A DNA stretch of 38,769 nucleotides, taken from assembly GCF_000003605.2 (NCBI RefSeq), contig NW_003140820.1:376860-415628 (forward strand). Reading direction: 5' to 3'. Source of the stretch: Saccoglossus kowalevskii (Eukaryota; Hemichordata; Enteropneusta; Harrimaniidae). The position numbers and the translations under genes were made by a program. The notes under the pieces were generated by a model that had not been told where the DNA came from, did not search any database, and worked only from the letters and a program-made list of their open reading frames with translations. Shown piece after piece: positions 1,011 to 35,106 of the stretch (the first letter of the stretch is position 1; each line of letters starts with the position of its first letter).

Positions 1011-3681
1011 TGTATATTTGGTGTTCGGCGGGTGTGATGTTTGTTTCGCCGAATTATGAATGTAATTAACAAACTACCATCGTAACAATTATGATTATGT
1101 ACGTGTTTTATTAAGAACCTTGATATAGGTAATGGCGTGAAACGAATCATAATTACGATCGTTAAAATCGAATGAACCTTTAATTGATTGTCTTGAATGT
1201 ACACCCTATTCAGAGATATATCAATAAAGAAGTTGCTCGATGAAATTTACTGATGACCAAATTTGCTGACGACTTGCCTCCCCCGGTAGCAGGCCGTATA
1301 TTTCTGAAGAAAAAGGCAGAGGGTGACCTCTTTCTTTAGACTTTTTTTAGCATCATCCTGGACAACGCGTACGGAATTCACGCTAAACATACTGCTGCCC
1401 GGGATTCATTTGCTGTTCATTTCAAAAGGTTTGGATCACTCTGGAGGTGATGACAGAATTTTAATTCGCTGTAATTTTATTTCTTCTTTGTGCAATGTTT
1501 TTTTCCCAAGACATAGGCATGCAGACGTTCCCTTCTGTTATTGTTTTGTGTGTGCATTTTTTTTCAATTCTGTGATCGCCCGATAGGTTCTAATGGCCTA
1601 CCCCTGAAGTGTTTACACGATTAGGGGAACACAATGAACACTACAGACAATAACTTTGCTTTCCTGTTTGTCAGTACAACAAAGTCTGAAAGATTTTCTT
1701 GCTCAGAATCGTACATTATTGAATAAAAATAGTTTGCCTCCATTGCATTCTCCAAAATTGCAAAGAGTATGAATGAACGCATGCACAAGTCATCAAACGT
1801 AGTTAATTTAACTAACCTATTTGAAAATAGTCAAAAATGGTCCAATTGTCACACAATCGATGCAAAACACAAATCCCATGACCGGGAATTTTGAAATACA
1901 TTTATCGCATATTTAGGCAAACATTACGTCATTAGATTGTATGTACATGTGCAGTATGTTTAATGACATCATGCTTAACAATCCAATGTTTACTCAACTT
2001 TGTTGATACTTTTTCATTCTTTCTTTGTACATTTACTGAACATTCCAAACCCGGATTTGCAATTCAATGATAAACTAACATCAGTTTTCTGATGTCTGCG
2101 TGTTGATCTGCGTGTAGGTTCTGCGGGACCCGCATGCGCAGATGCTGTTTTGATCAAGTCTGCGTGTGCGACCGATTCTTTTGTTTTAATACGATAAATG
2201 AAACCTAGCTATAAAACTTGTTTTCAGTGCTGAATATATGGAGCCGACGACAGAAAGAATTTAAGCGAGAAGCAATGCCCATGTTCAAGGTTAACCGAGT
2301 CATTATTTCTTTTTTTCGTTCTTACGAACAGTACGAGTATACCGACTATTCAATAATTTGAATGTCGGGATCGAACGTACTAAATTTACTGTGGTACGAT
2401 GGGAAATGACTCAATAGTTATATAGACCGGCCAAGAGAAATTTTGAAAAGTGGAAATTTTATATATGTTTTGTTAAATTATGGTCAACGAGAGAGGTTCA
2501 GCCAACTGGGCCAGTCTCCGTTTAATGCTGAGGATATTAATCTAAATAAGTTTGATTGTGATCGGTAATTTACGAACCTAAACCATTTAATGGCGCGATT
2601 CAGGTGTTAATCATTGCCGTTGAAAGACCGCAATCTTGAGAGTTCGCATCTTGAACGTGTTTGCTATTTTTTATTGACGGGCACGGTTGTCAACAACACG
2701 TTGACACTTTCGCTCAGCAACTAATTCGCGTATCGGAATTCGAAAGAGACGGGTGATGTAATGGTTACCGTCGTAATTGATATCGATTTTAGTGTACGCC
2801 ATAATAAACACATACTTTACTCACTAGTCACGAAATAAAAAACTAGACATTTTTTTTTACAAATATACGAATTACAAACCGCATTCACGCTAAGATTATT
2901 TATAATGTAAAAGGTCTAAATAATGCAAATTCGTCTATAAATAGTGTATTTATTGTCTGAACGAATATAATGGTATCGCAGTATGAAAATTATAAGTTGG
3001 CAGCGCGGTGTCGGCCATGTTTTATATTCGACTCGTTGTACTGTTTTTAAGTTCTATACCTATCATATCGCGGGATCTCGCAGTGTTCAATACATAACAG
3101 TACACGTACGCGTACAGCAAGGTTACATCAAACTATGATTTACCATATAGTCATACCGCGTATGATGTTTTGATTAACTGTCAGGTAGGCCTTGCAACTT
3201 TATAGCGTCTGAAACGGTCACTGGATCGTCTAGGAAAAGGGACTTTTCCAAATTTCGCTTGGCCATTAAATGGCTATAAAGGTATATATTTTGGTTCGTG
3301 GGAACTTGGGAGTGATATATATATATATTTTTTTTGCTTTTATTATCCAAAAAGTCTTGGCTATAGTGGTATCACACTATTCGTATCGTACTGAGTAACT
3401 AACGTCTTCTGTGACAGCAAAACAGGGCTGAATTATATCCCAACACCCCGTAAAACATATAAAGTCGAAATGAAATTAAATATTACTGTTTGCATGATAG
3501 TATTCGTAGTGTAACAGTAGTAATACATCGAATGTTGAAAATTCATGTACCTGTGAGCGTCTGTTTATCAAGGCGAGGTCACCTTGACGAAGACACCATG
3601 TCAAGTGACACAAGCAATACACATTCACTGGGACATGCCATGAACCCGGAAATATGCATAAGTAATATAAACTAAATCCAG
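1011..3681. other. Non-coding stretch upstream of the Ig receptor gene
   Basis: I see no coding exon. Short open frames such as 1323-1586 (+) lack homology I recognise and have biased, hydrophobic composition. A CGCATGCGCA word of NRF-1 type lies at 2131-2140. TATA-like words occur at 2936-2944 (TATAAATAG) and 3275-3282 (TATAAAGG). The receptor promoter should lie in this stretch, but no start site can be fixed from sequence alone. Confidence 0.5.
3275..3282 (+). promoter_or_regulatory. Candidate TATA box for the Ig receptor gene
   Basis: TATAAAGG lies about 420 bases upstream of the receptor start codon. A better-formed TATAAATAG at 2936-2944 is an alternative, about 750 bases upstream. In AT-rich DNA such words arise often by chance, so either is only a candidate. 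Confidence 0.2.
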
Positions 3682-3693
3682 GTGAAGGTAAAT

Positions 3694-5217
3694 ATGGATG
3701 GTGCATTTTCCTTCAGATGTGTGTCGTGTCTTTTGGTCTGTTACGTAACTATTGCTACAGATCCTAGTTTAGTTATACAGCCAGATGATCAAAGAGTAGT
3801 ACTGCAATATGGTACGTCACCGACATATGTCAGCCTTGATTGCAGAGTATCGGACTATGATGATCAATCCATGCAGGTATCTTGGTTCAAAAATGACATC
3901 ATCATTTCAGATGGTTACTTGTTCACTCAAGACATCAGTGCGTTGGTGGATACATCACGGTATTATATGACAAGTTGGGGTTTAACCGGAATGTACAAAC
4001 TCCAGATTATGACCGATGACGACTACGTAACATTCGATACAGGACAATACTACTGTGCGTTATTGTATTCATCCAACAAGACTGTGATTGAAAAGTCTCG
4101 CACTGCAGACATCAATATACACACCAGTCCACTGTGTGTTGTTGATTACGGAACCAGTTTGTATTACGACAACGCTGAAGGTAATGTTGACAATGTTGAT
4201 GTGTTGGAAGGAGAGACTGTTGGGCTGTCCTGTAGGTGCAAGTATTCTAGTACACCAATTCCTGGGGATATTATGATGTGGAGGAGAGATGATGTCATGG
4301 AAGATTTACCACTAAATGACGTCACACAATTAGATGGTTTACAATCGAGAGATAGTAACTGGCATCCTGAACGAGGGGAGCAAGGTCTGACATTTACTTG
4401 TACACATCGAATTCAAAATAAACCCGATAGAACATGTCAGGTTGGTCCATTCAATATAAAGTATGCACCCATTGTAAACGTGATACCAACTCAAATAGAA
4501 ATTAACGACAAACACCGGGTGACCGTCATACTGTGTAACAGTACAGGGAATCCTAGTGTAGACGATTACGTGTGGACATGGGACAATGGGGTGATTACCA
4601 GTAATGACAACTTTCATTTTGAAAATAACCACGCAATTCTCGCTATCCAGCGACTGGCCGTTGAGAATAATGGACCACATTATATAACATGTATTGGTAT
4701 AAATGAAATCGGTAACACAACGAGTGAAACTATCACGATACAAGTTAATATTACACCGCTCTCTACAGTTGCTCCTATCCCATCGGGACCCATCACTGAT
4801 TATGCAAAGTCAGCGATCATGAACACTAAGCCGATAGTACATGATGTCATAGTACAACCATTGAATGACTGTACGGTCTGTGGTGCTATTGGTGCTACAG
4901 TTAGTTGCATATTAGCAGTGATCGTTGTCATAGTTACAATATGTCTTGTTAAAGAAAAACGTGAGAGAAAGTGTCATCATCAGGACGTTGATATGTCTCC
5001 GGTTACAACAAAAGCTGAGATGTCACCGACAGGACATCTGACACCAATAGACGAATCTCGTCAAAACACCGACTCAGAATATATCAATATGGCAACTGAA
5101 GCAGCAGATTACGTGGAAGTCAATAACATAACACGACTACCAAATAAAGATGAAAATAACTATCAACCACTGGTTGGTAAATCACAAGATATTTATACTC
5201 AGTTACAAATAAAGTAA
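3694..5217 (+). CDS. Type I membrane receptor: three Ig-like domains, one TM segment, tail with YxNM and ITAM-like motifs
   Basis: An uninterrupted 507-codon frame, apparently a complete single-exon gene. The frame stays open 12 bases further up to a GTG, but the first ATG at 3694 has A at -3 and G at +4 and an in-frame TAA at 3673, so I start there. Residues 2-21 form a hydrophobic signal peptide. Ig1 (about 25-142) is V-like, with Cys50, Trp64 and the classic DTGQYYC ending at Cys121. Ig2 (about 147-256) has Cys180, Trp196 and Cys236 plus extra cysteines 182 and 248. Ig3 (about 259-352) has Cys281, Trp294/296 and Cys333. Possible N-glycosylation sites are Asn128, 282, 341 and 352. One transmembrane helix (about 397-418) lacks charged residues. 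The tail (419-507) has proline-directed sites at Ser435, Ser444 and Thr450, and tyrosines in YINM (463), YVEV (473), YQPL (490) and YTQL (501). The last two are spaced as an ITAM. Cell-surface recognition with tyrosine-kinase signalling is inferred; the ligand is unknown. Confidence 0.85.
   Translation: MDGAFSFRCVSCLLVCYVTIATDPSLVIQPDDQRVVLQYGTSPTYVSLDCRVSDYDDQSMQVSWFKNDIIISDGYLFTQDISALVDTSRYYMTSWGLTGMYKLQIMTDDDYVTFDTGQYYCALLYSSNKTVIEKSRTADINIHTSPLCVVDYGTSLYYDNAEGNVDNVDVLEGETVGLSCRCKYSSTPIPGDIMMWRRDDVMEDLPLNDVTQLDGLQSRDSNWHPERGEQGLTFTCTHRIQNKPDRTCQVGPFNIKYAPIVNVIPTQIEINDKHRVTVILCNSTGNPSVDDYVWTWDNGVITSNDNFHFENNHAILAIQRLAVENNGPHYITCIGINEIGNTTSETITIQVNITPLSTVAPIPSGPITDYAKSAIMNTKPIVHDVIVQPLNDCTVCGAIGATVSCILAVIVVIVTICLVKEKRERKCHHQDVDMSPVTTKAEMSPTGHLTPIDESRQNTDSEYINMATEAADYVEVNNITRLPNKDENNYQPLVGKSQDIYTQLQIK
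5208..5213 (+). terminator. Polyadenylation signal overlapping the end of the receptor frame
   Basis: AATAAA sits inside the last codons of the receptor, ending two bases before the TAA stop at 5215-5217. No other AATAAA is obvious in the next few hundred bases. If it is used, the transcript would have a 3' untranslated tail of only some 10-25 bases. Its use is inferred, not shown. Confidence 0.35.
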
Positions 5218-5703
5218 ATCTTAAAAACTGAACATTAGTCTCGTAAAAAGGGGTAACATTTTATTATCTGTCAATGTAATATAGGATACTACGCATACAA
5301 CAATTTATTGGGTATCAATCCTACAGCGCAGTCACAGCTCGTATCGGAATACGAACTGAAACGAAAACCTCTGACGCAATGTGAGCTTTTTATTAGTTTG
5401 CACTGGGGATTTTCTTTGATCTGACCAAGTTATCACCGATTTCATTTTCAAAAATAGAGTGCATCATTCATCTTGATTATGGGTTAAAATACGGGAATGC
5501 ATGGGAGAGCATAGTACAGTCATTTCTCATGAAAAATAACACCATTTCGAGAAAAAAACATCATTAACTTCTTTTCAAAATACATTTTAATACATTTAAT
5601 CCCTGCGTAGAGGGGGCCAGCTATAAATATTTTTCTCTGACCAATCATGAATATCTAGCCAATAATGAATGCGTAAATAATAGGAATTATATTACAATTG
5701 TTT
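5218..5703. other. Non-coding stretch after the receptor gene
   Basis: AT-rich sequence with stop codons in all frames. I see no exon, RNA gene or recognisable element before the dispersed repeat at 5704. Confidence 0.5.
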
Positions 5704-6165
5704 CCATGAGAACCTGAGTTTGTGGCTTCTCCCATTACGTTTTACTTCACTTTGGCCGCGATTTTGAACTGAAAAACCTCCAAATTGAACAAAATCTGAC
5801 AATCAAATCAGAGTTTTGTTAGGAAACGTAGATACGTGAAAAAAAAAAACAGGAATCCATGATTTAGTAAATATTGGATTTTCCCCTTAAAAATGTTTTT
5901 TTTTTTTTTTTATATTTGAATGTACGTAACATTACATTATTTATTGTCTATTTCAATCAATTGAGAACAAAGTTGGCGTTTCGTGTACTGCGCCATCTAC
6001 GTTATGATCATTTGCACAGGATTGCTCGACAGAGGGCGTATTATTGTATTATGTGCGTTATGTATACCCGTTTCTGCTCACAATATCTGTGGAAGGAAAT
6101 ATTAACTGCCAACATGCTTACAGAAAAATACGAAGAAACAAATTGTGTAACATGAATCACATGCT
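5704..6165 (+). repeat. Dispersed repeat, copy B
   Basis: Second copy of the repeat at 598-1010, in the same orientation and lying downstream of the receptor gene. It differs by short insertions, including a longer poly-T run near 5895-5912. The open frame 5874-6155 falls wholly inside the repeat and is not conserved in copy A, so I do not call a gene. The LINE remnant begins just to its right. Confidence 0.7.
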
Positions 6166-6180
6166 TGTGTGCGTGGTTTG

Positions 6181-8206
6181 AAATACTTAATAGTATTTAT
6201 TAAATCTATAAGATACAAAAGAAAAGAAAAGGTAAAAAAAAACATACATAAAGCTCCAAACTCACTCAAAACACAGTCACTGTCTGGTATTAAGACTGGT
6301 CTTAATGAATTGAGTTATGGAAAGTGATATATGTATGTTGCTCATAATGGAAATAAATTTATCACTTTCACTACTGGTTCTAAAATTATTTATATGAATT
6401 TCTGCTTTGTTAAATAAATGCAGTCTATGTGTTCTGTATGCTGCGCAATTCATAACATCTTCAATTTTGTTTTGTATACATTGGTCATACTTTCTAGAAT
6501 TAATAGCAATCTGTTTTTGTCTGTTAGTTTCAATCTCACTTGCAGATATAATTTGTTTTATTGACAGTGTAGACATCCTTCGATTATGTATTTGATGAGT
6601 TGTTGAATTTATTAAATGATTTAATAATTTTTGTTTAAATAATCAACAAGACATATTGCCATTTTTGATGGGATGCCAAGTACAAATCAGCAGAATGAAT
6701 GATGTACATCCTCAAATGCTGATTTTATAGTACATGTACTTTCATCACCCTAAACACCACTGCCATATGTAATAAACTCGTCTTATAAACTTATCAAAAA
6801 GTGACATAAAAGTATTATTGTTATGAGTACTTTATTTTCAAGGAAATTATAGTTTTTTTTTCTTTTCTTTTTAGGTTGTTTAAACCTCCTTTAAATCTAC
6901 TATTTGAACTAATAGTTAGGCCAAGGTAATTAATTTCATTGACAATATTAATTTCCTTTCCTTCAAAGAAAACTGTTTTGTTATTTAGATTCATAATTGA
7001 TCTATTAAAAATAATATCAAGTATTTTCTCAATATTTACTTTCGAGACACCATTTTGATGGCAGATGGCCATATCGTCTACCCATGAGCCTTTGCGTTTT
7101 AGCGTGTGTTGTTATCGTCGCTTGGGACTCAATTCCCGCGCGTGCGCAGGTGATGACCCTCCCGCTTTAAGTCTTGAAATACATATCTTTGATGATAATA
7201 CATTTGCCCGAAATTTCATTCTTTATAAGTTTTAAATAGAGGCCATTGTGCCAAACGTCGTGACTGTCAAATTGTTTACTCGGATAAATAAGCATAAATC
7301 TTTCTTTTTAATTCTATTGTTACTTTAACGAGTCTGCTGTATTCCCGGACTGCTTTTGGGTTTAATGTGTCTGAGCAATAAGACTTGTGTTCCAGAATTT
7401 TGGATTTTTTCCAGAGTCATGGGTTTTGTTAAAAATGTTGTGTAGAGCTTCAATAATTTAATATTCCCTTATTTAAATGTATCATTACATACTTATCCTC
7501 GTCAGGTGATTTTTTTTTTTTTATTTCTTAATTGCATCTTTAATATGCTGAACTAAGATTAGTAATCAGTAATCGATTCATTAATATAATTTTTTTTTGA
7601 AATGTCATGTACTTTGTTATTACTCAGTGTTTAATATGAAGGAATTTTGTTTAACAACTTTGTAAAGTATCTCAGTTATCCACTAAATCACTCGGTTTAA
7701 TTGAGCATGTTTCATCGATTTCTCTCAATAATTTCCAAAATTTAGGTGGTTCACTGACTGGTATTCAATCATTGATAATTGTTTAAATTACTTTTTCTTT
7801 ATTTTTTATTAGTTGTTCAACTGATTTTTTTTAATTTTGAAATAATTACCACGAATTATTGGATCTAGTGGAAACAATTTAGTGCATTTTAAAATGTATT
7901 CCTAGTTGATCAGTAGTCATTGTCAAACCACTTTTTACGTCTTATCTTCCTGACGGTTTTAGTTGTAGTTGTTGTTATTAAATAAATAACTGTTAAATCA
8001 CAAATATTATCACTATTATTATTGAAATATATAATTTTATAGTTTTATACATATGTACACATGAAATAAATTTTCATTTTGCCTGGATGTCCCAGTTGTA
8101 TATTTAGCTGGTAACGGTTTGAATTTTTTTAATTTGCTTATTTTGTTTTGGAAAGTCGTTACTAATACCATATAAATTCAGGGATAATGAGACTTATGTC
8201 ACGTGG
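6181..8206 (-). mobile_element. Decayed LINE (APE-type non-LTR retrotransposon), minus strand
   Basis: Read on the minus strand, broken frames follow the order of a LINE ORF2. A run like the end of the endonuclease (RDISLIIPE, about 8206-8180) comes first. Then a linker with YNWD (about 8098) and KKWFDND (about 7940), and EPPKFWKLLREID (about 7752-7712). RT block 0/1 follows as IKDAIKK and KSPDEDKY (about 7540-7490), with WKKSKI after it. The RT end shows VNEINYLGL and FKGGLNNLK (about 6960-6880). Last is a C-terminal region with SESDKFISIM and FIKTSLNTR (about 6400-6280). Many stops and frameshifts and an RT core with missing sequence show it is dead. It appears 5' truncated near 8206, since nothing like the rest of the endonuclease lies beyond. 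Two open pieces survive at 6821-7072 and 6277-6576. The clade cannot be fixed; Jockey/I/CR1-like groups are possible. Confidence 0.75.
7078..7170 (-). repeat. Fragment of a second repeat lying within the LINE remnant
   Basis: Bases 7078-7151 are the reverse complement of 30219-30296 with moderate divergence; shared words include CGCGGGAA, AACAACAC and CTCATGGGTAGACG. Bases 7140-7170 also match 30331-30362 in the forward sense (GCAGGT...CCCGCTTTAA). The segment is more GC-rich than its surroundings. It sits where the middle of the LINE reverse transcriptase should be, so it is either an insertion or part of a rearranged junction. Confidence 0.7.
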
Positions 8207-15104: not shown

Positions 15105-15243
15105 ATGACAACAACAATAATAATGCCGGAGAAGGAGAAGATTGAAAGTACGCCGGAGTATTTGGCCCAACTTTTGAAAGACAAGAAGACCATTGCAACG
15201 ATGCCAAGTCTATTCCAGCACGCTGAGCGGTTACTCGATGATG
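15105..15243 (+). CDS. Quaking/How-family STAR RNA-binding protein, first coding exon (partial gene)
   Basis: Encodes 46 residues plus one base. After a short acidic and basic lead the sequence TPEYLAQLLKDKKTIA and HAERLLDD matches the start of the QUA1 dimerisation domain of Quaking (QKI), Drosophila How and worm GLD-1. These proteins have TPDYLMQL / ADYLAQLLKD / VEYLADLVKEKK, then ERLLDE/D. QUA1 mediates dimerisation; the KH and QUA2 RNA-binding parts would be in later exons. Family members bind ACUAAC-type RNA and control splicing, stability and translation. The exon ends with a single G before GTACGT, a phase-1 junction splitting the codon after LLDD, which agrees with my recollection of the human QKI exon 1 boundary. 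Frame beyond 15243 is intron read-through. The upstream ATG context is CACAATGA. How or QKI orthology cannot be separated from one exon, so no symbol is given. Confidence 0.88.
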
Positions 15244-15249
15244 GTACGT
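15244..15249 (+). other. 5' splice donor of the Quaking-like exon
   Basis: G|GTACGT directly after the conserved LLDD codons. It matches the donor consensus GTRNGT and keeps the phase-1 boundary expected for the family. Confidence 0.8.
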
Positions 15250-15866: not shown

Positions 15867-17832
15867 GACGTAGGTCGTCTTTGAAGTACACTAAAACTCT
15901 GAAAACTAGCGTAACTGACGTTTTTCAATCATGTCAGTCGTTGTGGTGAAATTTATTTTGGATCTGATAGCAATTCATTCAAAATTACGTTAATTACTGT
16001 CTATGACGGTTATCGATCTTCCAGACAACGAAAATTTGATGTTTGACAAGCGAGCTGACCTAAACAGCCTTTCTACTTCCTGTGGTGTGTTATTTAGACA
16101 GCGCCCTACAACAGGCCTCTCTCTGGCTCTGGCAGCTCGATCGTTTCCCCCTAAACCAGCCCCATTCTCTGTTCAATTTTGATATTGAGACGGTGGTCGT
16201 TTGGTTGACGATGTCAGTAGGGTGCAACCAATCGTGCTGGCTGTCTGTCTCAGTCATCGCCTGTTTTTTTATAGGGGTCCTGTGACCTCGATCAGTCCCG
16301 AACAGCGAGTTCCTGTCATTTTAACAGTATACACATCAGTTGGATTGGATGTGTATCTAATGTATGCTGACAAGTTTATAATTTGAGATGCTAATATTTG
16401 CAGATCGAAACTGATCACAAGAAATGTGTTTGTATAAATTGCTGGTATGTTTTAATGCATTTTAAGATTAGTGCTATTTTGATAATGCAAATTAATGGTA
16501 AAGAAAATATAAAAATAGCAATTTATTTTTTTAAGACGTTGGTTTGTGTGGGATCTCATTACGACAGCATTATATTTTAAATTGCAAACTACAATCCGAT
16601 AAGCCACCTTGTCAGCTGAACAGTTTCAAAGATAGCAATAAAAAAACGCTAAGAACTTAATCCTAAAATTTATTAAAACTGAAGAGATTTACGATGACTG
16701 TCGGCATATAGAGGCAATTGTGAATTGCAGGTTGGTTATTATCTTGTTAAAGAATACCTTTCTCTAATGTTCTCCCCATAAACTCTGCCACAGTACGGTT
16801 TGATTGTCTAAATTCAATGGTCTAGCATTCACACTGGTCAGCCATGCATGCTTGCTTGTTGACTGTTTTTGTTTTCTTGCTACCTGTTTTGCATGCCTGG
16901 TTACTGTGAATACATTTGGCCCTGGGGCAGTGTCATCTTATTTAGCAACTTGCTGACTGGGTTTCCACGGTAATTTGTGTCCTAAAATTCTTGGATTAAT
17001 GATGTGTTACCAATTTCCCAGGGTCGAGGAATAAATTAAGAAAAAAAAAACTTGTCCATTGTAAAACAAACTGATAACTGCCCCTTTCTTTAATTATTAG
17101 TTAGTGGTTTTGATGTTGTGTATGGTGTCGTTGACGCTGCTATTGTGTCCAACTGGAAGGTTTATCAATATACTCATAGCTTATAAGCTTGTAACATTTC
17201 CCACTGACAGTCATGTACTGTATATTCGCCACCCAACCCTTTTGGCCGGCTTGTAAAGATGTACATAGTGGGTGTTAGGGAATTTTTGAAGATGATTACT
17301 TTGTTAGGTGTTTGTTACATTGAACTGACAGTTGTTTAGTTTGGACTGTCAAAATCAGCTGTTCTGGAGGCGCAATTCAAGTTGTTTGTCAGGAAGCAAC
17401 AAAGCAGATTCATACCATTACCAATGAAAAGGTCAGTGCTGTTCCTGACTGCACTGTAATTTTCGCCTGGGGAGCGAGTGGCTAATGCTTCTAGTTCATT
17501 TGAATTTGTTGGTATGCCACTTTTGTTCCATTTGCCCAGCACACATGTAGAAATACATGTAGGGTGTTGATATCATGAATCTTAAAAACAAGTCTTTGCC
17601 AATATTTACATTGGGTATCCAGCATGTCATCTTTGCATTTGAGTCAAACATGGTTTTCTTTTTCTATTTTACCAAGGACAAATGATTTTTCAAAAAATAT
17701 ATGAAAAATATATATATAAAAAAAACAAAAAAATTCTTGCCCTGCTACTCAATTTGCTTGCTAAAATCTACACAAAGTTAAGGTACCGTATTTGTCCCAT
17801 TAGACTCGCATCTCCAATACTAGCATGCATAA

Positions 17833-18024
17833 TGTAAAATTTTTCATTTTCGCTTGGAGTTTACTTTTAATGAAAGTGATTCCAAAAAAAATAAAATCCA
17901 GCAAATGTACTTTATTCCCATATTTTACAATCGACTCGTAAAAAAACAGTGAAAATAAATTCTGTACACAAAACAGCCAAAAAGTCTTTTCAGCAAAAAT
18001 TACTTCCAGCTAGAATATTTTAAT
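17833..18024 (+). mobile_element. Palindromic MITE, family 1, decayed copy
   Basis: Shares the internal order of the better copies: TTTTCGCTTGGA, AAATAAAATCCAGC, a TATTTTACA block, CAGTGAAAATAAATTC and CTTTTCAGC. The outer ends have drifted and the terminal TACTGTAG is lost, so boundaries are approximate. It is the most diverged member in the window. Confidence 0.6.
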
Positions 18025-21095: not shown

Positions 21096-21282
21096 TACTG
21101 TAGAATACTTTATTTTTGCTTGGAATTTATTTTCGCTGAAGGGATGATTCCGTGAAAATAAAATCCAGCGAATATACTTTTTTTCCTATATTTCACATTA
21201 AACTTGTCAAAAATCAGTGAAAATAAATTCCAAGCAAAACGTCCAAAAATCCTTTTCAGCGAAAATAAAGTATTCCACAGTA
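21096..21282 (+). mobile_element. Palindromic MITE, family 1
   Basis: Begins TACTGTAGAATACTTTAT and ends TAAAGTATTCCACAGTA, terminal inverted repeats of about 25 bp (one mismatch in the first 16). The interior also folds back: TTTATTTTCGCTGAA against TTCAGCGAAAATAAA. It has no coding capacity. A TA at each end would suit a Tc1/mariner-type target duplication. The open frame 21204-21431 partly crosses it and is not a gene. Confidence 0.8.
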
Positions 21283-23269
21283 TATTGCCCCTGATTGGAG
21301 GGGGGTTTGTATGTGTTGTATGTGCAAAATTTTATTTTTGCTGGTTGAAAATTGTAACAGGATTGGTGAGAAAGAATAAAAAATTAAATTATAAATCCAC
21401 TATGCTCACAAAACAATGTACAATGTATTGAACTTCTGAGTGAATCAATTTTCATCTTCTATATTCTGGAGCAAATTAGAAACTTTTTGTTTTTGCGATG
21501 TTTTTTTTTAAGCTGTGTGCTGAACACAACGTATAGAAGTCAAACAGCCAAGCTGCTTGTAATAATAGGTGCAGAAAACCTACCCAACTGTTATTGTACT
21601 GTGATTAAACTTTCATAAGCATGCACCTCCTGAGAGGGCAACTTGAATCAAGGACACGCATACATCAGTACACCCTGCGTTGGCCCCTAGAATGTCTTGA
21701 TATGAATCCTATTTAGTTAAAATTCACTGCAAGACATTATGCTTGATATGCAAGAGATAACGCCCGCCCGTCGCAGATAGTGAAATTCAGCTGGGCTCCA
21801 TGCTAGTGCTTATGCACTCTGACAGACAGAAGTTGTATACACTTGGTTCTCCCATGTTAATACATTGTAATATATTGACAGACTCTGTATGCAGGCACAA
21901 TTGGCTTTCACCCGGCTCTATTGAAATGTACAAGAATTTTCCTATTGATCGACTTGTCCCTTCTTCTGGTGTTGTGTGGTGACTGTGTATACATGTCCAC
22001 CCTAAACAAGGGCCTTGGCGTAGTTCTTTACCGGGTCATGCATGCATCTGTTATAAGCATGTACATTTCTTGTTATATCAATGAGCATGACCAGAATATT
22101 ATTTTTCTCTCTCTTGTTGCCTTCTTCTGCACGTGCACAATACCACGGATATGCAGTAATTTGATTCACTACAAAAGAACTTGTGACAATATACAACTAC
22201 TGGTATAAAAGTGAAATATTAAGCGGTTTGTCGTATATACCGTTAAGTGGTGAAATAGTCATTCTTCTGCAAGTTATAATAGCCCGCCCAATGTCTGTTT
22301 TTTTTTTTTTTTAAATCATCTACTAGGAGCCTGAGATCATAATCTGCCTTGTATATGTGGTTAATTATAATGGTACATATTTGTGGAAAGCCTCGTTGGT
22401 GCTTTTTTAATGGATGTATATTTTTCGTTTCAAGATGTTGTAGTTTTCTTTGTTTGCTGATTGAAAAGCATCACAAAGCTTGTTCCTTGTAATGGATACA
22501 GCAATGTTTACTTGTGTACCTTGCATGCGGCTTACTGCTTATTCAAGTCATTGTCCTTGTAACTCAGAGACTAGCATTGTGTGTGCTGTGCAGAATATGC
22601 AGACCGACCTGATTTTCTAGCTTGTAATGTATGCAAAAACTGATGCATATTTTGTTGCTAGGCTACCATTTGACTAATAATGTTGATTTCTGATGTGTTT
22701 GTGATTTGTTATATTTCAAGATGCGCGATTAATCACGTAGAAGCATTATATGAAACGTTCATAAAACACAAGAAACTTCTTTTGTCCATGCAATATCATC
22801 TTTTGTCTTCTGCGAGGCAGTGGTAAACGAATAATTTTGCACCCCTTCCCCCATTCCTACTAAAACTGTTTATTAATGTAAATTGTAATATAAGGTAAAA
22901 TAACTTGATGTCAACTATTAAATTTTTAATATCATCCTGGGGTATAACATCATAGATAAAGTCAAAACATTTTTTTTTTTTTACTTCCTTGAGGTATATA
23001 ACAGATTACATGTATGTTGTCAGCCATTTTGAACGTTGATAAGAGCGTAGCTTTTAAAAAAAAAAGTTGTTTGTGTGACAGATAAAATGTTTTTGTGCAA
23101 TAAAACGAGTCTTGATTAACCAGCATACTTGCACGCACACTCGTACGTGCATAGATTCCCCTTGACTCTGAAATGCAATTTGCTTGGTTGTCTCCAGTGT
23201 CTGATCGGTTAATGGCACGTTATGACAGATGTCCATCAACCGCAGCTAGCCTATTACCATCTCTATTAT

Positions 23270-24862: not shown

Positions 24863-25074
24863 TACTGTAGAATACTTTATTTTCGCTTGGAATTTATTTT
24901 CGCTAATTTCGCTGAAGGGATGACTCCGTGAAAATAAACTCCAGCGAATATACTTTTTTTCCTATATTTCACATTAAACTCTTCAGAAATCAGTGAAAAT
25001 AAATTCCATACAAAACGCCCAATAAGCCTTTTCAGCGAAAATTAATTCCAGCGAAAATAAAATATTCTACAGTA
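24863..25074 (+). mobile_element. Palindromic MITE, family 1
   Basis: Begins TACTGTAGAATACTTTATT and ends AAATATTCTACAGTA. It is the longest copy (212 bp) and closely resembles 21096-21282 in the same orientation, with a small internal duplication of TTTTCGCT. Both terminal inverted repeats are well preserved. Confidence 0.82.
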
Positions 25075-25782
25075 TATTAATTTGACTTCTCCACATAATG
25101 TGTGCTTCAATAACTTCTGTAAGCATGTTAGCTGTAATTTGAAGGGTTGTTGAGTGAGTAAGGCTATTATTAAAACTTTATCACTTAATATTTAACATTC
25201 AGTGTTTTATGAATGGAACAATTTTACATTTGATTGATGACATGTTGTTTACAAATGTGTAACTTGTTCGTGAAATCCTGATTAATACCAATCAAAGTGA
25301 AAATCTTGGAATCGATGCAAATGAATGAAATTTGATTGTTTTAAAAATACCCGCATGGACATGTTAATTGCGATTCTGCTGTGCATTTCATCCTGCATCA
25401 CTAGCTATATTTGCATAACGAAGTGTCTCAATAATGTGTGCTTCGCATTCTATATTATTCATATTTCTCTTTAGCATTCAGGTATTGTGGTCAAGATGTT
25501 CTTAGCGTGAGAGCAAATTTCCAACTCATTTCCTCCACAGTTCAAGTCTGGCTACCCTGGCAGACAAATTTCTCATTTCAATATTAGAATAAAACACACG
25601 ATACCGACCCTCCTCAAGCCTACGTCACATTTAAAAAAAAAATGACAGTCGGATCAGCTCGTCAGAATATTTGATTGCAGTTCAGGAAATAAGTAGCTAT
25701 ATTGTATTAGTATTTGGGTTGAATTATGTCTGAACAGCTGGTAGGAACTGTCAAAAAAGGCTGTATGAATTCCCTAGCTTTT

Positions 25783-30413: not shown

Positions 30414-31093
30414 TCTCTACTAAAAGAGCTAATATGGTAGGCTTCTGTGGTAGGCTCCTGTATGAGAAGTGCTGCTAAAAAAACAAATACCGTATTATGT
30501 ATACTTGAGCCATCATGCTTTGTAATCCTTGCGCTGATTTTAAGGGGCACCAAGAAAGGAAAAACAAGCAGCCTCTCGGCTGAGATAGCTCCGCTGTTAG
30601 CAATGCACATTTCAATTAAAGAACAGAAGATATCATTAGAAAATGAACAATATGTATAGTATCAAAGCAATGGGACTTGCTGTTTTCAACAAGAATTCAA
30701 AAATATCATTTTTCACCATAAATGACAAAAATATTCACCAAAATTAGAGAATTAAAGATATCATTACAAAATGAACAAATCTGAGAGAGGTCCACATGTA
30801 GTACCTATATATGTAATATCAAAGCAATTGGACTTGCAATTTTTAACAAGAAGTCGAAAATATCACTTTTTACCAAAAATGACAAAAATATTCACCAAAA
30901 TTAGAGAATTGAAGATATCATCATGAAATGAACAAATCTGAGAGAGGTCTACCCAAGGTACATATACACCAAGTATCAAAACATTCACGCTTGTAGTTTT
31001 CAAGAAGTCGAAAAAGTAAAACATTGACACGGACGACGACGGACAATCACTCGTATGATAAGCTCCGCTTGACAAAGTCGACAGCGGAGCTAA
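30414..31093 (+). mobile_element. Helitron-like non-autonomous element with internal tandem repeats
   Basis: The left end reads TCTCTACTA, a typical Helitron 5' terminus. The right end has a 9-bp hairpin, AGCTCCGCT at 31061-31069 against AGCGGAGCT at 31083-31091, overlapping a final CTAA followed by T, as in the hairpin-plus-CTRR 3' end of Helitrons. Between them lie a unique stretch and a 157-bp tandem array. This matches non-autonomous Helitrons described from bivalves, which often carry internal tandem repeats. The hairpin lies closer to CTAA than usual and the 5' flanking base is T, so the call is tentative. Open frames at 30392-30610 and 30863-31075 fall inside and are not genes. Confidence 0.5.
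30627..31020 (+). repeat. 157-bp tandem repeat inside the Helitron-like element, about 2.5 units
   Basis: ATCAAA(G/A)CA(A/T) words occur at 30661, 30818 and 30975, exactly 157 bases apart each time. AGATATCAT...ATGAACAA and AATATTCACCAAAATTAGAG recur between them. The first unit is partial and the last is cut off after about 45 bases by the terminal segment with GACGGACAATCACTCG. Confidence 0.9.
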
Positions 31094-31958
31094 TAAAAAC
31101 CAGCATTTATGAAAATGAATATTACTACCACGAACTTTAGGTAAAAGAAAAAACAGTCAGTCCCTTGCATTGCACCTTGGCATTATCCTGCATATCTCTT
31201 TAACAATATAATACATTAAGTTCTTTGCTTTGATCGAATACTTGGTAATTGAGGAGCATGTTGAGAGGAGTCGGTGGCTGTCAATATATTAGCTTAAAAT
31301 GCTGCTTAGAACTGCCTGGAGTAGAATTGTGCATGTTTTGGCGTATTGTAGAGTGAAATACAGCCAGTGCAATGTAAACTTCTGAAAAGTAAAAGGCAAA
31401 GTGTTTAGTACTCAATTGTGCAAACATTGTCGTTTTCCAGGACACTGCAAACAAGTTGTGACATACACAACCACCCTTAACTTGTTTTCCCCCTGTTCAC
31501 AGCTATTCAATGAACACATTGACATCTATTTAAGTGAAGCTCAAACTCCTGGCTTGTACCATTTTTCTGTAATTTGGGGGAGGAAGGGGGTGAGACGGAG
31601 GCGAGTGTCTGAGATTCATAAGTTTCCCAATTCACTGAAGTTAGTGTTTTCAAGTGTATGATCAGTTCCCGCAATTGTTCTATGGAATTGTTTGTTTTTA
31701 CTCTGATTGCGATTCAGATCGTCTCCCTAGAAATAAATTAATCAGTTAAGTATGTATACTGGTGAATATACCATACTTTCAATTACATGCTTCTTTTCAA
31801 CCACATGCAAATTAAATGTAATGTAGGATACCCCATCTTGTTTACTCTATTCAAGGGGGAGGTGTCAAACCCAGGGATCATGGAATCCTGGGACACCATT
31901 ATTTGATGTTATTTACATTTTAATCTGTTTTTTTGTTGTCCATTTAAATTGTATCAAG

Positions 31959-32137
31959 TACTGTGAAGTACTTTATTTTCATTTAGAATTTATTTTCACT
32001 ATTTTTGCTAAATTGATGAATCAGTAGAAATGCTATCCATTTAAGATCCCCCTTCTCCTATATTTTACATTCAACTCATCAAAAGTCGGTGAAAATAAAC
32101 TTTATACAAAACAGCCAGAATGAAGTATTTTACAGTA
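31959..32137 (+). mobile_element. Palindromic MITE, family 1, diverged copy
   Basis: Begins TACTGTGAAGTACTTTATTT and ends GAAGTATTTTACAGTA, with interior words AATTTATTTTCAC, CCTATATTTTACATTCAAC and GTGAAAATAAAC in family order. Several internal stretches are missing or drifted. Confidence 0.7.
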
Positions 32138-32789
32138 AGTAAAGTCAGTGTGAGATTCAGCTTAACTGAAGGTTTCCCTTTAAATGATGCATGCAGTTGG
32201 CGTAAGCGGATCAGTGAAACTTAAATTTAGTGTACCGGTACTTTAAACAAATTTGTTTATTTCACTTTAAATTAAAATGGCTCACTTTAAACTAAAATAA
32301 AATCATTCAACTTATTTGAATATAACTGAAATCCTGTCTAAATCATTGTTACCGGTAATAATTTTTGCAAATAAAAATATCAAATTGGTTTCTTTGCAAA
32401 CAATCTTTGGGAATAGATAAATCTCTATAAATGCTTGTCTGACGAGCAACAATAATCCTCTGTAACATCACTAGTGACAGTCTAATAATCGGAAAAACAA
32501 AATCTGAGTTTGTTGTGCCAGTAATCCGGCAGTAGAAGACGAGATGCATCTGCAATAACTTAATAAGTTCAGTTTCACTGGGATCGTAGTGTAGCAAAAT
32601 TACAACTTTACAGAAAGTGAAAAATTACCCTTTCTGTCACATGGGAATTGCCAGCGGAGATGTAGAATAGAGTAATCATAGGCCACTGAGTTTTCAATTT
32701 GATGATTTGCCAGTGGAATAAAAATAAATTCAAATTTAATGCTTTTAATGTAAGGTATATTACAGTTGTTTTGTCAAAAGCGTCTTATA

Positions 32790-32998
32790 TACTGTGGAAT
32801 ACTTTATTTTCGCTGGAATTAAGTTTCGCTGAAAAGACTTTCTGGGCATTTTGTATGAAATTTATTTCTACTGATTTTTTTTTTTTGACGAGTTAAATGG
32901 GAAATATAGGAAAAAAAGTATATTCACTGGATTTTATTTTCATGGAATCATGACTTCAGAGAGAAAAAAGCGAAAATAAAGTAAAGTATTCTACAGTA
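32790..32998 (-). mobile_element. Palindromic MITE, family 1, opposite orientation
   Basis: Begins TACTGTGGAATACTTTATTT and ends AAAGTATTCTACAGTA. The interior order is reversed compared with the other copies: CGCTGAAAAG first, then GAGTTAAATGGGAAATATAG, then TGGATTTTATTTTCATGG. It lies about 650 bp from the copy at 31959 in the opposite sense, so transcripts across both could pair. Confidence 0.78.
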
Positions 32999-35106
32999 CT
33001 TACTGTTACTGCCTTAGGATAGAAAGTGACTTGTTCACTTTATAGTGATGTCATGCGTTATTTATTTAAATTTAATGGGCTATACGAATAACTGCTTTTC
33101 GTTTTTATGGCAGTCATGAAGACCAAATTTTGGAAAGTGGCTGACACTCCTTGTTCTATGACCTTACAGAAATTCTAACTGCTACAAAATTTCTTGACTA
33201 TCTGTTTATGCGAAATTCACGAAAATATGCTCCTGTGCAATTTATGCTATTTTTGAGTTTTAACTATTTTTGTTATTATCCTGACAGGAGCAATATGAGG
33301 TATGATTTATTGTGAAATTAATAATATTGTTTAAGCAGCAAACGTATTAGTATTTATAAAATACATAAATGCGCATACTGTATTTGTTCCTTTAGTAAAT
33401 GACAGATTTAGCCTTAGGTTTAGCAACACAATTAATGCAATTGTTGGTGTTTATGCACGTCTATTGGAAAATAAAGAATATGGTTTAGTGTATTATAACG
33501 CCATAAGTTACAGCATGTTGTAATTTTGCTGTATTTCACGGAGGTATTTTCATCCTACCATATTCGGAAATGCGAATTCCAAATATGGAATGTTTACGTG
33601 CTGCCACCAGGGTTTCATCGGACTCCACACAAAGAAATTCGCTGATTCTGTTCTAAACTTTTTGGATTTCGGAATTCCCACGATGTATCCTTGGAAGGAA
33701 AAAAATGTATATGAGCTAATTACGAAGATACACTGAGCATGCACGCGGACAGTACGCCGTCGCATCGATCTCTGCTACGCTTTGGTCGATACTTCCGCTG
33801 CCTTTGTGCATACTTTGAGGTATCCTCGTAATAACCTCATATTATTGTTCCTATATAGAAACTACATGAAGCAGAATTATTTTAATGTTTAAAGATCGTT
33901 GGTTGATATGCTATTGCCTCTTTTAAAAAAAACTAAATGTGCGACTGAAACCAGTTTTCTCTGCCCAGCAACCTGATTATTTGAAGGTCAGTTGATGAGA
34001 CCAAGACCTCATCCATTGACCATCAGGTCATGAGTTATTGTTCAGTGTTTATAACTGAACATTTGTGTTTTTCCGCCGACACAGACAAAATGCGTTTGTA
34101 TCGACGATCAACAAAAAAAAAAAGGTTAGTTTTATTGACTTGGTAATAAAATTATATCATTTCCTTAGATACTTGAATTTAACCTTATTAAAAAAAATCA
34201 TCAAAACATGCTTAACTCTAAAGTGTTGAGTTGTACACTTTGGGCTATTTTGAGTTGTCTGTCGTCTGTCTGTCCGTCTGAGTTGATTTTGAGTTTGACA
34301 ATGTTTTTTGGAATTGCTGGCTAAATGTGATTTAAATTGTTCAACATGCCCTTTTTTGTGAAGAATTGCCATGTGTTAAACAGTTTAAATTTATTTAGCA
34401 GTCTCTTTTGAATGTGTAATTAATTTTAAATATTTTTTGCATGCCTGAGTACTCACAACTCTGGTATCTTTTTTCTAAGCTGTATTTAATAGTTAACCAG
34501 TGTGAACCCGCAAGTGCATCATGCACAATAAACCTATTAAAAAAAAGAGAATATACATTGAAACTAGTAACATGTCTGGACATGGTATGGTAAATTAATA
34601 TGGATGAGCAAGCCTTTAATTACATGGGCCTTTAATAGCTTATAGAATCTTTTTCACTATACCTATCTTTACCATTAGGTAGGCCAAAATAAGACAATGG
34701 AGCTATAAAAAGTATATAAAGTACAAACTTGTAACTGTACTGTGTTTAATGTGCGACTTTTTAAGCTTGAATGATTTTGACTTCTATGCAGTGTATATGT
34801 CTATCTATTGTGCAACTAACACCTTGGTGGGACTGTTTTCCAAATGTCCTTATTTCTGTGGGAAAGTTTGATGTGTGTGCCTTGAACTTACCCTACTAGT
34901 TCCAAGATCTCATCTCGGTCTAACCCTAAAAATATTTTTGATTCGTTGAGTGATTTAGAAGGAATATTTATTGCTCAATGATTGTTTTGAAAAAAAAAAA
35001 TCATATAAATGACACGTCTTAAATACCAATCTGATCGGGTTGTGTTGCATCATTCTCTAAACAATGGTAAACATCAAGGGCTTTGTGGAGTTGTATCACT
35101 TTCCAA

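Follow-up and report, generated by a model that had tools for sequence, protein, structure and literature searches.

The gene at 3694–5217 of the window, the whole stretch of 38,769 nucleotides analysed here (C3169:376860-415628 in a 572-Mb assembly), probably encodes the activating member of a clustered, one-exon family of paired Ig receptors in an invertebrate. The predicted receptor combines an ITAM with a YxNM motif in its cytoplasmic tail, and among its relatives, ectodomains of this kind are also joined to ITIM tails, a pairing that the initial annotation of this DNA had missed. All conservation described below is conservation within one genome and concerns paralogues only.

The open reading frame starts at 3682 and closes at 5217, with a Met at 3694. 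Its 513 codons lie beyond chance, the longest frame in 200 base shuffles of the window being 174 codons. From the Met to the stop codon inclusive (3694–5217; all features of the gene lie on the forward strand), a single exon encodes a type I membrane receptor of 507 residues. The signal peptide (3694–3759, end approximate) is read from the hydrophobic stretch after the Met, and the other array copies have similar N-termini. Three Ig domains with approximate limits follow: a V-like domain 1 at 3760–4119 (C54–C125 and DTGQYYC, with residue 1 at the ORF start, 3682), domain 2 at 4120–4455, and an I-set/C2-like domain 3 at 4456–4755, typed by Pfam and PDB comparisons. The domains were counted by their cysteine-tryptophan pattern, and Ig is also found by Pfam, where the whole protein matches Ig_3 (E 2e-10); domain 2 alone stays below the cut-off, and the domain 1 piece by itself gives V-set and other Ig scores under the cut-offs. 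All matches of these domains in PDB and Pfam are generic Ig matches.

The transmembrane helix (4879–4950) has a core devoid of charged residues, as first annotated, and leads into a tail of 88 residues (4951–5214). Here, Y463 forms YINM (5080–5091), Y473 forms YVEV (5110–5121), and Y490 (at 5161) and Y501 (at 5194) form the ITAM core YQPL-x7-YTQL (5161–5205); re-reading returned exactly the four tyrosines, the coordinates, and the YxxL-x7-YxxL spacing of the initial annotation. YxxM is the consensus for PI3K p85 and YxN that for Grb2, and YINM combines the two.

Seven tandem copies form an array at 321–382 kb, and the window gene comes last. Four copies are open over their full length, namely the window gene and three more at 73–78% identity; the remaining three are broken or split. 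Upstream sequence is common across the array copies; the corresponding stretch in the window (3459–3693, forward strand) possibly holds the promoter and the 5′ leader. On the same strand, a repeat at 611–1010 has its partner in the 3′ flanking repeat at 5717–6163; the part at 829–1086 also matches the 3′ flanks of other array copies, and parts of 5717–6163 are common to the array copies L005 and L008. Further, a 133-nt tandem repeat occupies 240–597 of the window, with many copies behind array gene L007 and fewer or partial ones behind L004 and L005.

Beyond the array, the window protein finds 49 matches on 13 contigs of its own genome, and the distant relative L029, used as query, finds 50. 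From the 49 matches, those on C127, C1866, C1613, and C3325 and some partial ones were left out, so that the tail counts given below are lower bounds; the material comprises 58 frames, 34 free of N and 24 holding N. The full-length relatives that were read are mostly single open frames of roughly 430–1030 residues, running from signal peptide to tail. Consequently, the one-exon form is a family trait, with an intron in the 5′ leader being possible. Recent retroposition of the window copy is rejected: the region 5218–6300 contains no AATAAA, a single ATTAAA at 6199, and a first A-run of at least eight at 5839, and the one-exon form common to the relatives also disfavours it. The family as a whole may still descend from an old retroposition at its root. 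A search of viral contigs returned no relative. L001, from the prokaryote collection, was discarded as a chance match to bacterial RpoC. For the animal itself, COX1 and ND1 can be read well with AAA as Lys and are encoded on opposite strands, which would speak against an echinoderm or hemichordate code.

The remainder of the window holds several further features. A quaking/How-type STAR gene has its first coding exon at 15105–15246 on the forward strand (Pfam STAR_dimer, E 1.6e-12), with a GTACGT donor near its end; a piece of QKI as query found no later exon of this gene in the window. On the reverse strand, 30889–31105 is a fragment with a resemblance to adiponectin-receptor/PAQR proteins (Pfam HlyIII, E 3e-4, below the cut-off; AdipoR1, E 0.025), which overlaps a 157-nt tandem repeat and looks decayed. 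Dispersed short repeats in both orientations, MITE-like by eye, occur at 17830–18017, 21096–21285, 24863–25077, 31959–32141, and 32787–33000. Additionally, a reverse-strand frame at 6824–7111 looks by eye like part of the reverse transcriptase of a LINE, and Pfam gives no convincing match for it.

Tail types were counted in 23 representative tails, hand-chosen for lineages and consisting of 22 of the 34 N-free frames plus L030. Left out were near copies (L003, L004, L005, L008, L015a, and the second frame of L007), frames whose tail could not be relied on (L006, the first frames of L007 and L014, L017:1711, and L023:5227), and L013:8956, which is the same gene as L030. An ITAM with x6–8 spacing occurs in five of these tails (expected 0.13, maximum three in 2000 shuffles), which represent four ectodomain lineages. 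Eight others of the 23 carry two or more ITIMs such as LTYADL, ITYAQI, and similar (expected 0.53, shuffle maximum four), among them L028, which fits the ITIM pattern only loosely. ITAM and YxNM together are present in two (expected 0.001, shuffle maximum one). Several family members have neither ITAM nor ITIM, for example L030 (C1345:195400-197600), which keeps the three-Ig plan on a 21-residue tail without tyrosine motif and may represent a third, silent class. Besides their ITIMs, the long tails of L017 and L018 (275 and 314 residues) contain many further tyrosines and some proline-rich stretches.

Three lineages combine alike ectodomains with opposite tails, whose class is assigned by motif only. 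In the first, the neighbours L013a (with ITIMs) and L013b (with an ITAM) lie some 3 kb from each other on C1345 in convergent orientation. Over residues 41–280 they share an identity of 0.85–0.97 with a dS of 0–0.18, as opposed to 0.20–0.33 with a dS from 1.9 to saturation beyond residue 320, and their tails are unlike. As the low silent divergence is limited to the outer domains, their likeness would most simply reflect gene conversion or a recent exchange of the lower half. In the second lineage, the window gene and L009 (ITIM), located on another contig, are 54.6% identical in their ectodomains. Residues 121–160 are 95% identical (dS 0.04) and form the sole near-identical stretch of domains 1 and 2; the identity between the tails is 0.21–0.26, about the level of unlike tails. 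In the third, the ectodomain of L015b (ITAM) is 55% identical to that of L018 and 52% to that of L017b, both of which bear ITIMs, and the tails do not match. L015b and L018 reside on different contigs, and L013a and L013b are the only paired examples that adjoin.

In a maximum-likelihood tree of 18 ectodomains, of which 13 are labelled by tail type and five are unlabelled, well-supported branches force at least four changes of tail type; the tree contains three long-branch rows, two of them joining. On this tree, tail types cluster no more strongly than shuffled labels. Tail-against-tail comparison gives matches among the ITIM tails of several ectodomain lineages. The ITAM tails of the array match those of L015 and also that of L022, which lacks an ITAM; for the ITAM tails of L013b and L029, no other tail matches at E 0.01.

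The same pattern might be read as recognition or adhesion in development or allorecognition rather than in defence, with the pairing produced by ordinary domain shuffling and conversion within clusters. Gene conversion is common in tandem families, which speaks for this reading. Moreover, the candidate allorecognition receptors of Botryllus and Hydractinia are clustered and include putative activating and inhibitory members (PMC12065747). By itself, however, this explanation fails to account for unlike tail classes staying on alike ectodomains in three lineages, and we consider it rather unlikely. The alternatives weighed here are not mutually exclusive, and a role in allorecognition or adhesion is compatible with the signalling mechanism proposed below.

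Mixed tails bear on a second alternative, in which the ITAM receptors are themselves mixed or inhibitory, either because the ITAM is inhibitory or because YVEV and neighbouring motifs dock a phosphatase, so that the two kinds of tail are not simple opposites. L015a, which lies outside the 23 tails, carries an ITAM together with two ITIM patterns, contrary to a clean split, and L015b and L005 each combine an ITAM with one ITIM pattern. L016 joins an ITAM-like pair with x10 spacing to LTYADL, and YVEV is conserved without an assigned partner. The oyster receptor CgIgIT2 is likewise called "inhibitory" in a reference title and is given a classic ITAM in the text of the review (PMC11999971). In contrast, no tail of the representative 23 has an ITAM (x6–8) accompanied by two ITIMs, which suggests that the labour is divided at least in part. 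We regard a mixed or inhibitory function of the ITAM receptors as improbable. The tails of L016 and L015a could be intermediates between the ITAM and ITIM classes.

An activating role of the window receptor is consistent with the conservation of its tail. The four tyrosines and the four residues at +3, including Y and V of YVEV, are invariant in all six open-frame tails among the seven array copies; two of the six, L007 and L008, come from copies broken further upstream. As 32 of the 91 columns of the alignment are invariant, the chance of this invariance of Y and +3 residues is 1.2e-4. YxNM is present in six of six open-frame tails as well; the seventh copy, which is broken, retains a readable ITAM and has lost the N of YxNM. 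The dN/dS among array tails, estimated from few sites, is 0.37 in the ITAM core, 0.82 in the YINM core (five codons, few changes), and 1.25 in the membrane-near tail. Given the low value in the ITAM core compared to 1.25 near the membrane, homogenisation alone does not account for the ITAM.

Two distant relatives show the combination again. Over the stretch that matches the window protein, L015a is 26% identical; it has YENM, YIDV, and YQSL-x7-YMTL, and L029 (28% identical) has YINM and YQHI-x7-YMTL. Thus, conserved among paralogues and recurrent in these relatives, the combined YxNM and ITAM tail looks like a selected feature. Both motifs stand together in eight of the 11 tails with an x6–8 ITAM; YxNM is missing from L013b, L014, and L015b. 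Because of these three tails, the lost N in the broken copy, and the dN/dS of 0.82 in the YINM core, YxNM is less constant than the ITAM. The initial annotation had asked whether YxNM and the YxxL pair are conserved in orthologues, and had named Ig domains kept with the tyrosines lost as the contrary outcome. Among paralogues, the array (six of six open frames), L015a, and L029 keep both motifs, and the relatives with ITIM tails keep the Ig domains without these tyrosines.

The statistics of the single window tail point in the same direction and are only suggestive; paralogue conservation weighs more. In shuffled window tails, an ITAM (x6–8) arises with a frequency of 0.0034, YxNM with 0.011, and both with 3.5e-5; with the tyrosines fixed, the values are 0.020, 0.012, and 1.5e-4, respectively. 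A motif panel that allows for choice gives 0.007–0.019 for a paired motif plus any other.

Yxx-hydrophobic motifs are also used by AP-2, and the tail tyrosines might mainly be sorting signals (YxxL/M/V) for endocytosis of an adhesion receptor, their ITAM spacing being incidental. All four tail tyrosines fit this pattern. AP-2, however, needs a single YxxΦ and no fixed spacing, whereas the x7–x8 pair recurs in four ectodomain lineages, in three of them with YxNM alongside, and other relatives have paired ITIMs instead; a mainly sorting function is quite improbable. Chance appearance of the motifs in a fast-evolving tail, or a pseudogene, is hardly credible: an ITAM arises in 2% of shuffles with fixed tyrosines and the array includes three broken or split copies among its seven, but the frame is intact, six of six open tails are conserved, and the motifs recur in distant relatives.

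For the predicted activating signal, candidate partners were sought in the same genome with human queries. SHP-2 exons are present at 67–80% identity and serve as the control for the search for Syk. The SYK tandem-SH2 query gave three weak matches (36–38%). With the SYK kinase as query, long matches did not exceed 37% and short exons reached 54%; Syk was not found in the genome with these queries. The kinase search also met several stop-free kinase-like frames of about 300–800 residues on C3649, C1523, C3372, C2513, and other contigs, and genes of a single exon may be widespread in this animal. For the best SH2 exon, SYK and ZAP-70 are the nearest solved structures, and an ankyrin exon follows on the same strand within less than 3 kb. 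SH2 followed by ankyrin is the order of Shark; a second SH2 exon and a kinase exon of this Shark-type gene were not found. The tail fits the ITAM consensus. Recruitment of Syk/ZAP-70, as initially annotated, is in doubt because Syk was not found with these queries while a Shark-type SH2-ankyrin gene was. Shark is the more likely candidate for the kinase of this ITAM, with Syk as a possible alternative. Signalling from Src42A via the Draper ITAM to Shark is demonstrated in Drosophila (PMC4503800). Further, PMC5978004 links Syk in invertebrates with the presence of Bcl10 and CARD-CC in the species, a pattern that Shark does not follow.

We propose that the ITAM and ITIM partners see the same or a similar ligand. 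Clustering would lead to phosphorylation of the ITAM tail by a Src-family kinase, and the phosphorylated ITAM would dock a tandem-SH2 kinase, more likely Shark than Syk, while YxNM would dock PI3K p85 and/or Grb2. The output would be an activating signal for phagocytosis, killing, or rejection, opposed by SHP-2 that the ITIM partner would recruit. Beyond this mechanism, it is conceivable, and put forward here tentatively, that the family forms a full paired-receptor immune system made from one-exon genes, in which heads are exchanged or homogenised between ITAM plus YxNM tails and multi-ITIM tails without exon shuffling, and which signals through Shark and SHP-2 rather than through Syk and SHP-1.

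Paired receptors are commonly presented as the answer of vertebrates to pathogens that exploit inhibitory receptors. If our reading holds, the paired design arose or was kept far outside the vertebrates, and the family would be a case of tail exchange in genes that have no exons to shuffle. The ITAM plus YxNM tail would then provide activation and co-stimulation in a single chain, as a natural counterpart of the tail of a second-generation CAR, and the animal would allow an ITAM and a CD28-like YxNM to be tested in one natural chain.

Comparison with known systems separates general likeness from kinship. The window ITAM shares seven of 15 residues and the x7 spacing with that of DAP12, to which the initial annotation considered it close; CD3-gamma reaches the same seven of 15 among nine human ITAMs, a tenth having been skipped for its length. 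The likeness is thus not specific, and kinship with DAP12 is rejected. DAP12 is an adaptor with a charged transmembrane helix and almost no ectodomain, whereas the window protein is a full receptor with an uncharged helix and three Ig domains and lacks the features of such adaptors. Measured against the extended ITAM consensus D/Ex7D/ExxYxxI/L as quoted in PMC7026191, the window protein has E at −3 and I at −11, so that a distal acid of this consensus is absent. The three Ig domains also leave the plan of the CD28 family (a single V-set Ig) unmatched, with YxNM as the only common feature. CD28 (YMNM) has one Ig domain and no ITAM, and CARs are man-made. A membrane-near YxNM followed by an ITAM in a single chain is the order of the second-generation CAR as well.

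ITAM-bearing invertebrate receptors are not new, and the Ig receptor that the initial annotation singled out has precedents in the oyster (PMC11999971) and, as Ig receptors with ITIM or hemITAM, in Botryllus (PMC12065747). As far as its description in the review text reaches, oyster CgIgIT2 resembles the window receptor as an invertebrate Ig receptor with a transmembrane helix and a classic ITAM in the same chain, and differs by its five Ig domains; neither a paired partner nor a YxNM is mentioned in that description (PMC11999971). Botryllus FcoR consists of a V-type Ig, a sushi domain, and two C2-type Ig domains on hemITAM or ITIM tails, with alternative splicing and two-gene pairs FF/FcoR (PMC12065747). 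Like the window family, FcoR and the Hydractinia candidates are clustered, with putative activating and inhibitory members; the window family differs from FcoR by three Ig domains, one exon, and a full ITAM. In Drosophila, the ITIM form Draper-II acts via Corkscrew against Draper-I Src-ITAM-Shark signalling (PMC4503800), but Draper is a CED-1 family member whose two tails arise by alternative splicing of a single gene. Further motif-bearing tails are described for an ascidian protein with two ITAMs (PMC5465252), shrimp Dscam with a YxxL called ITAM (PMC6851185), and catfish LITR 1.1b, whose tail combines a YxN site with ITIMs (PMC4810170). The passages drawn from this literature, in searches aimed at subjects other than pairing, mention no one-exon invertebrate family with alike heads on both kinds of tail and an activating member of the ITAM plus YxNM type.

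For a descent from KIR, FcR, or CEACAM, PDB and Pfam offer only generic Ig matches. The vertebrate paired Ig receptors (KIR, LILR, SIRP, FcR/FCRL, and CEACAM) place alike ectodomains on activating and inhibitory tails, and the window family resembles them in having alike ectodomains on both kinds of tail. Within one such group, CEACAM1 carries ITIMs, CEACAM3 an ITAM-like motif whose first tyrosine docks PI3K, and CEACAM4 an ITAM in one chain (PMC7026191). Compared to the vertebrate paired receptors, the window family is distinguished by its one-exon genes, by an ITAM that is often joined by YxNM, and by an activating chain that bears its own ITAM behind an uncharged transmembrane helix.
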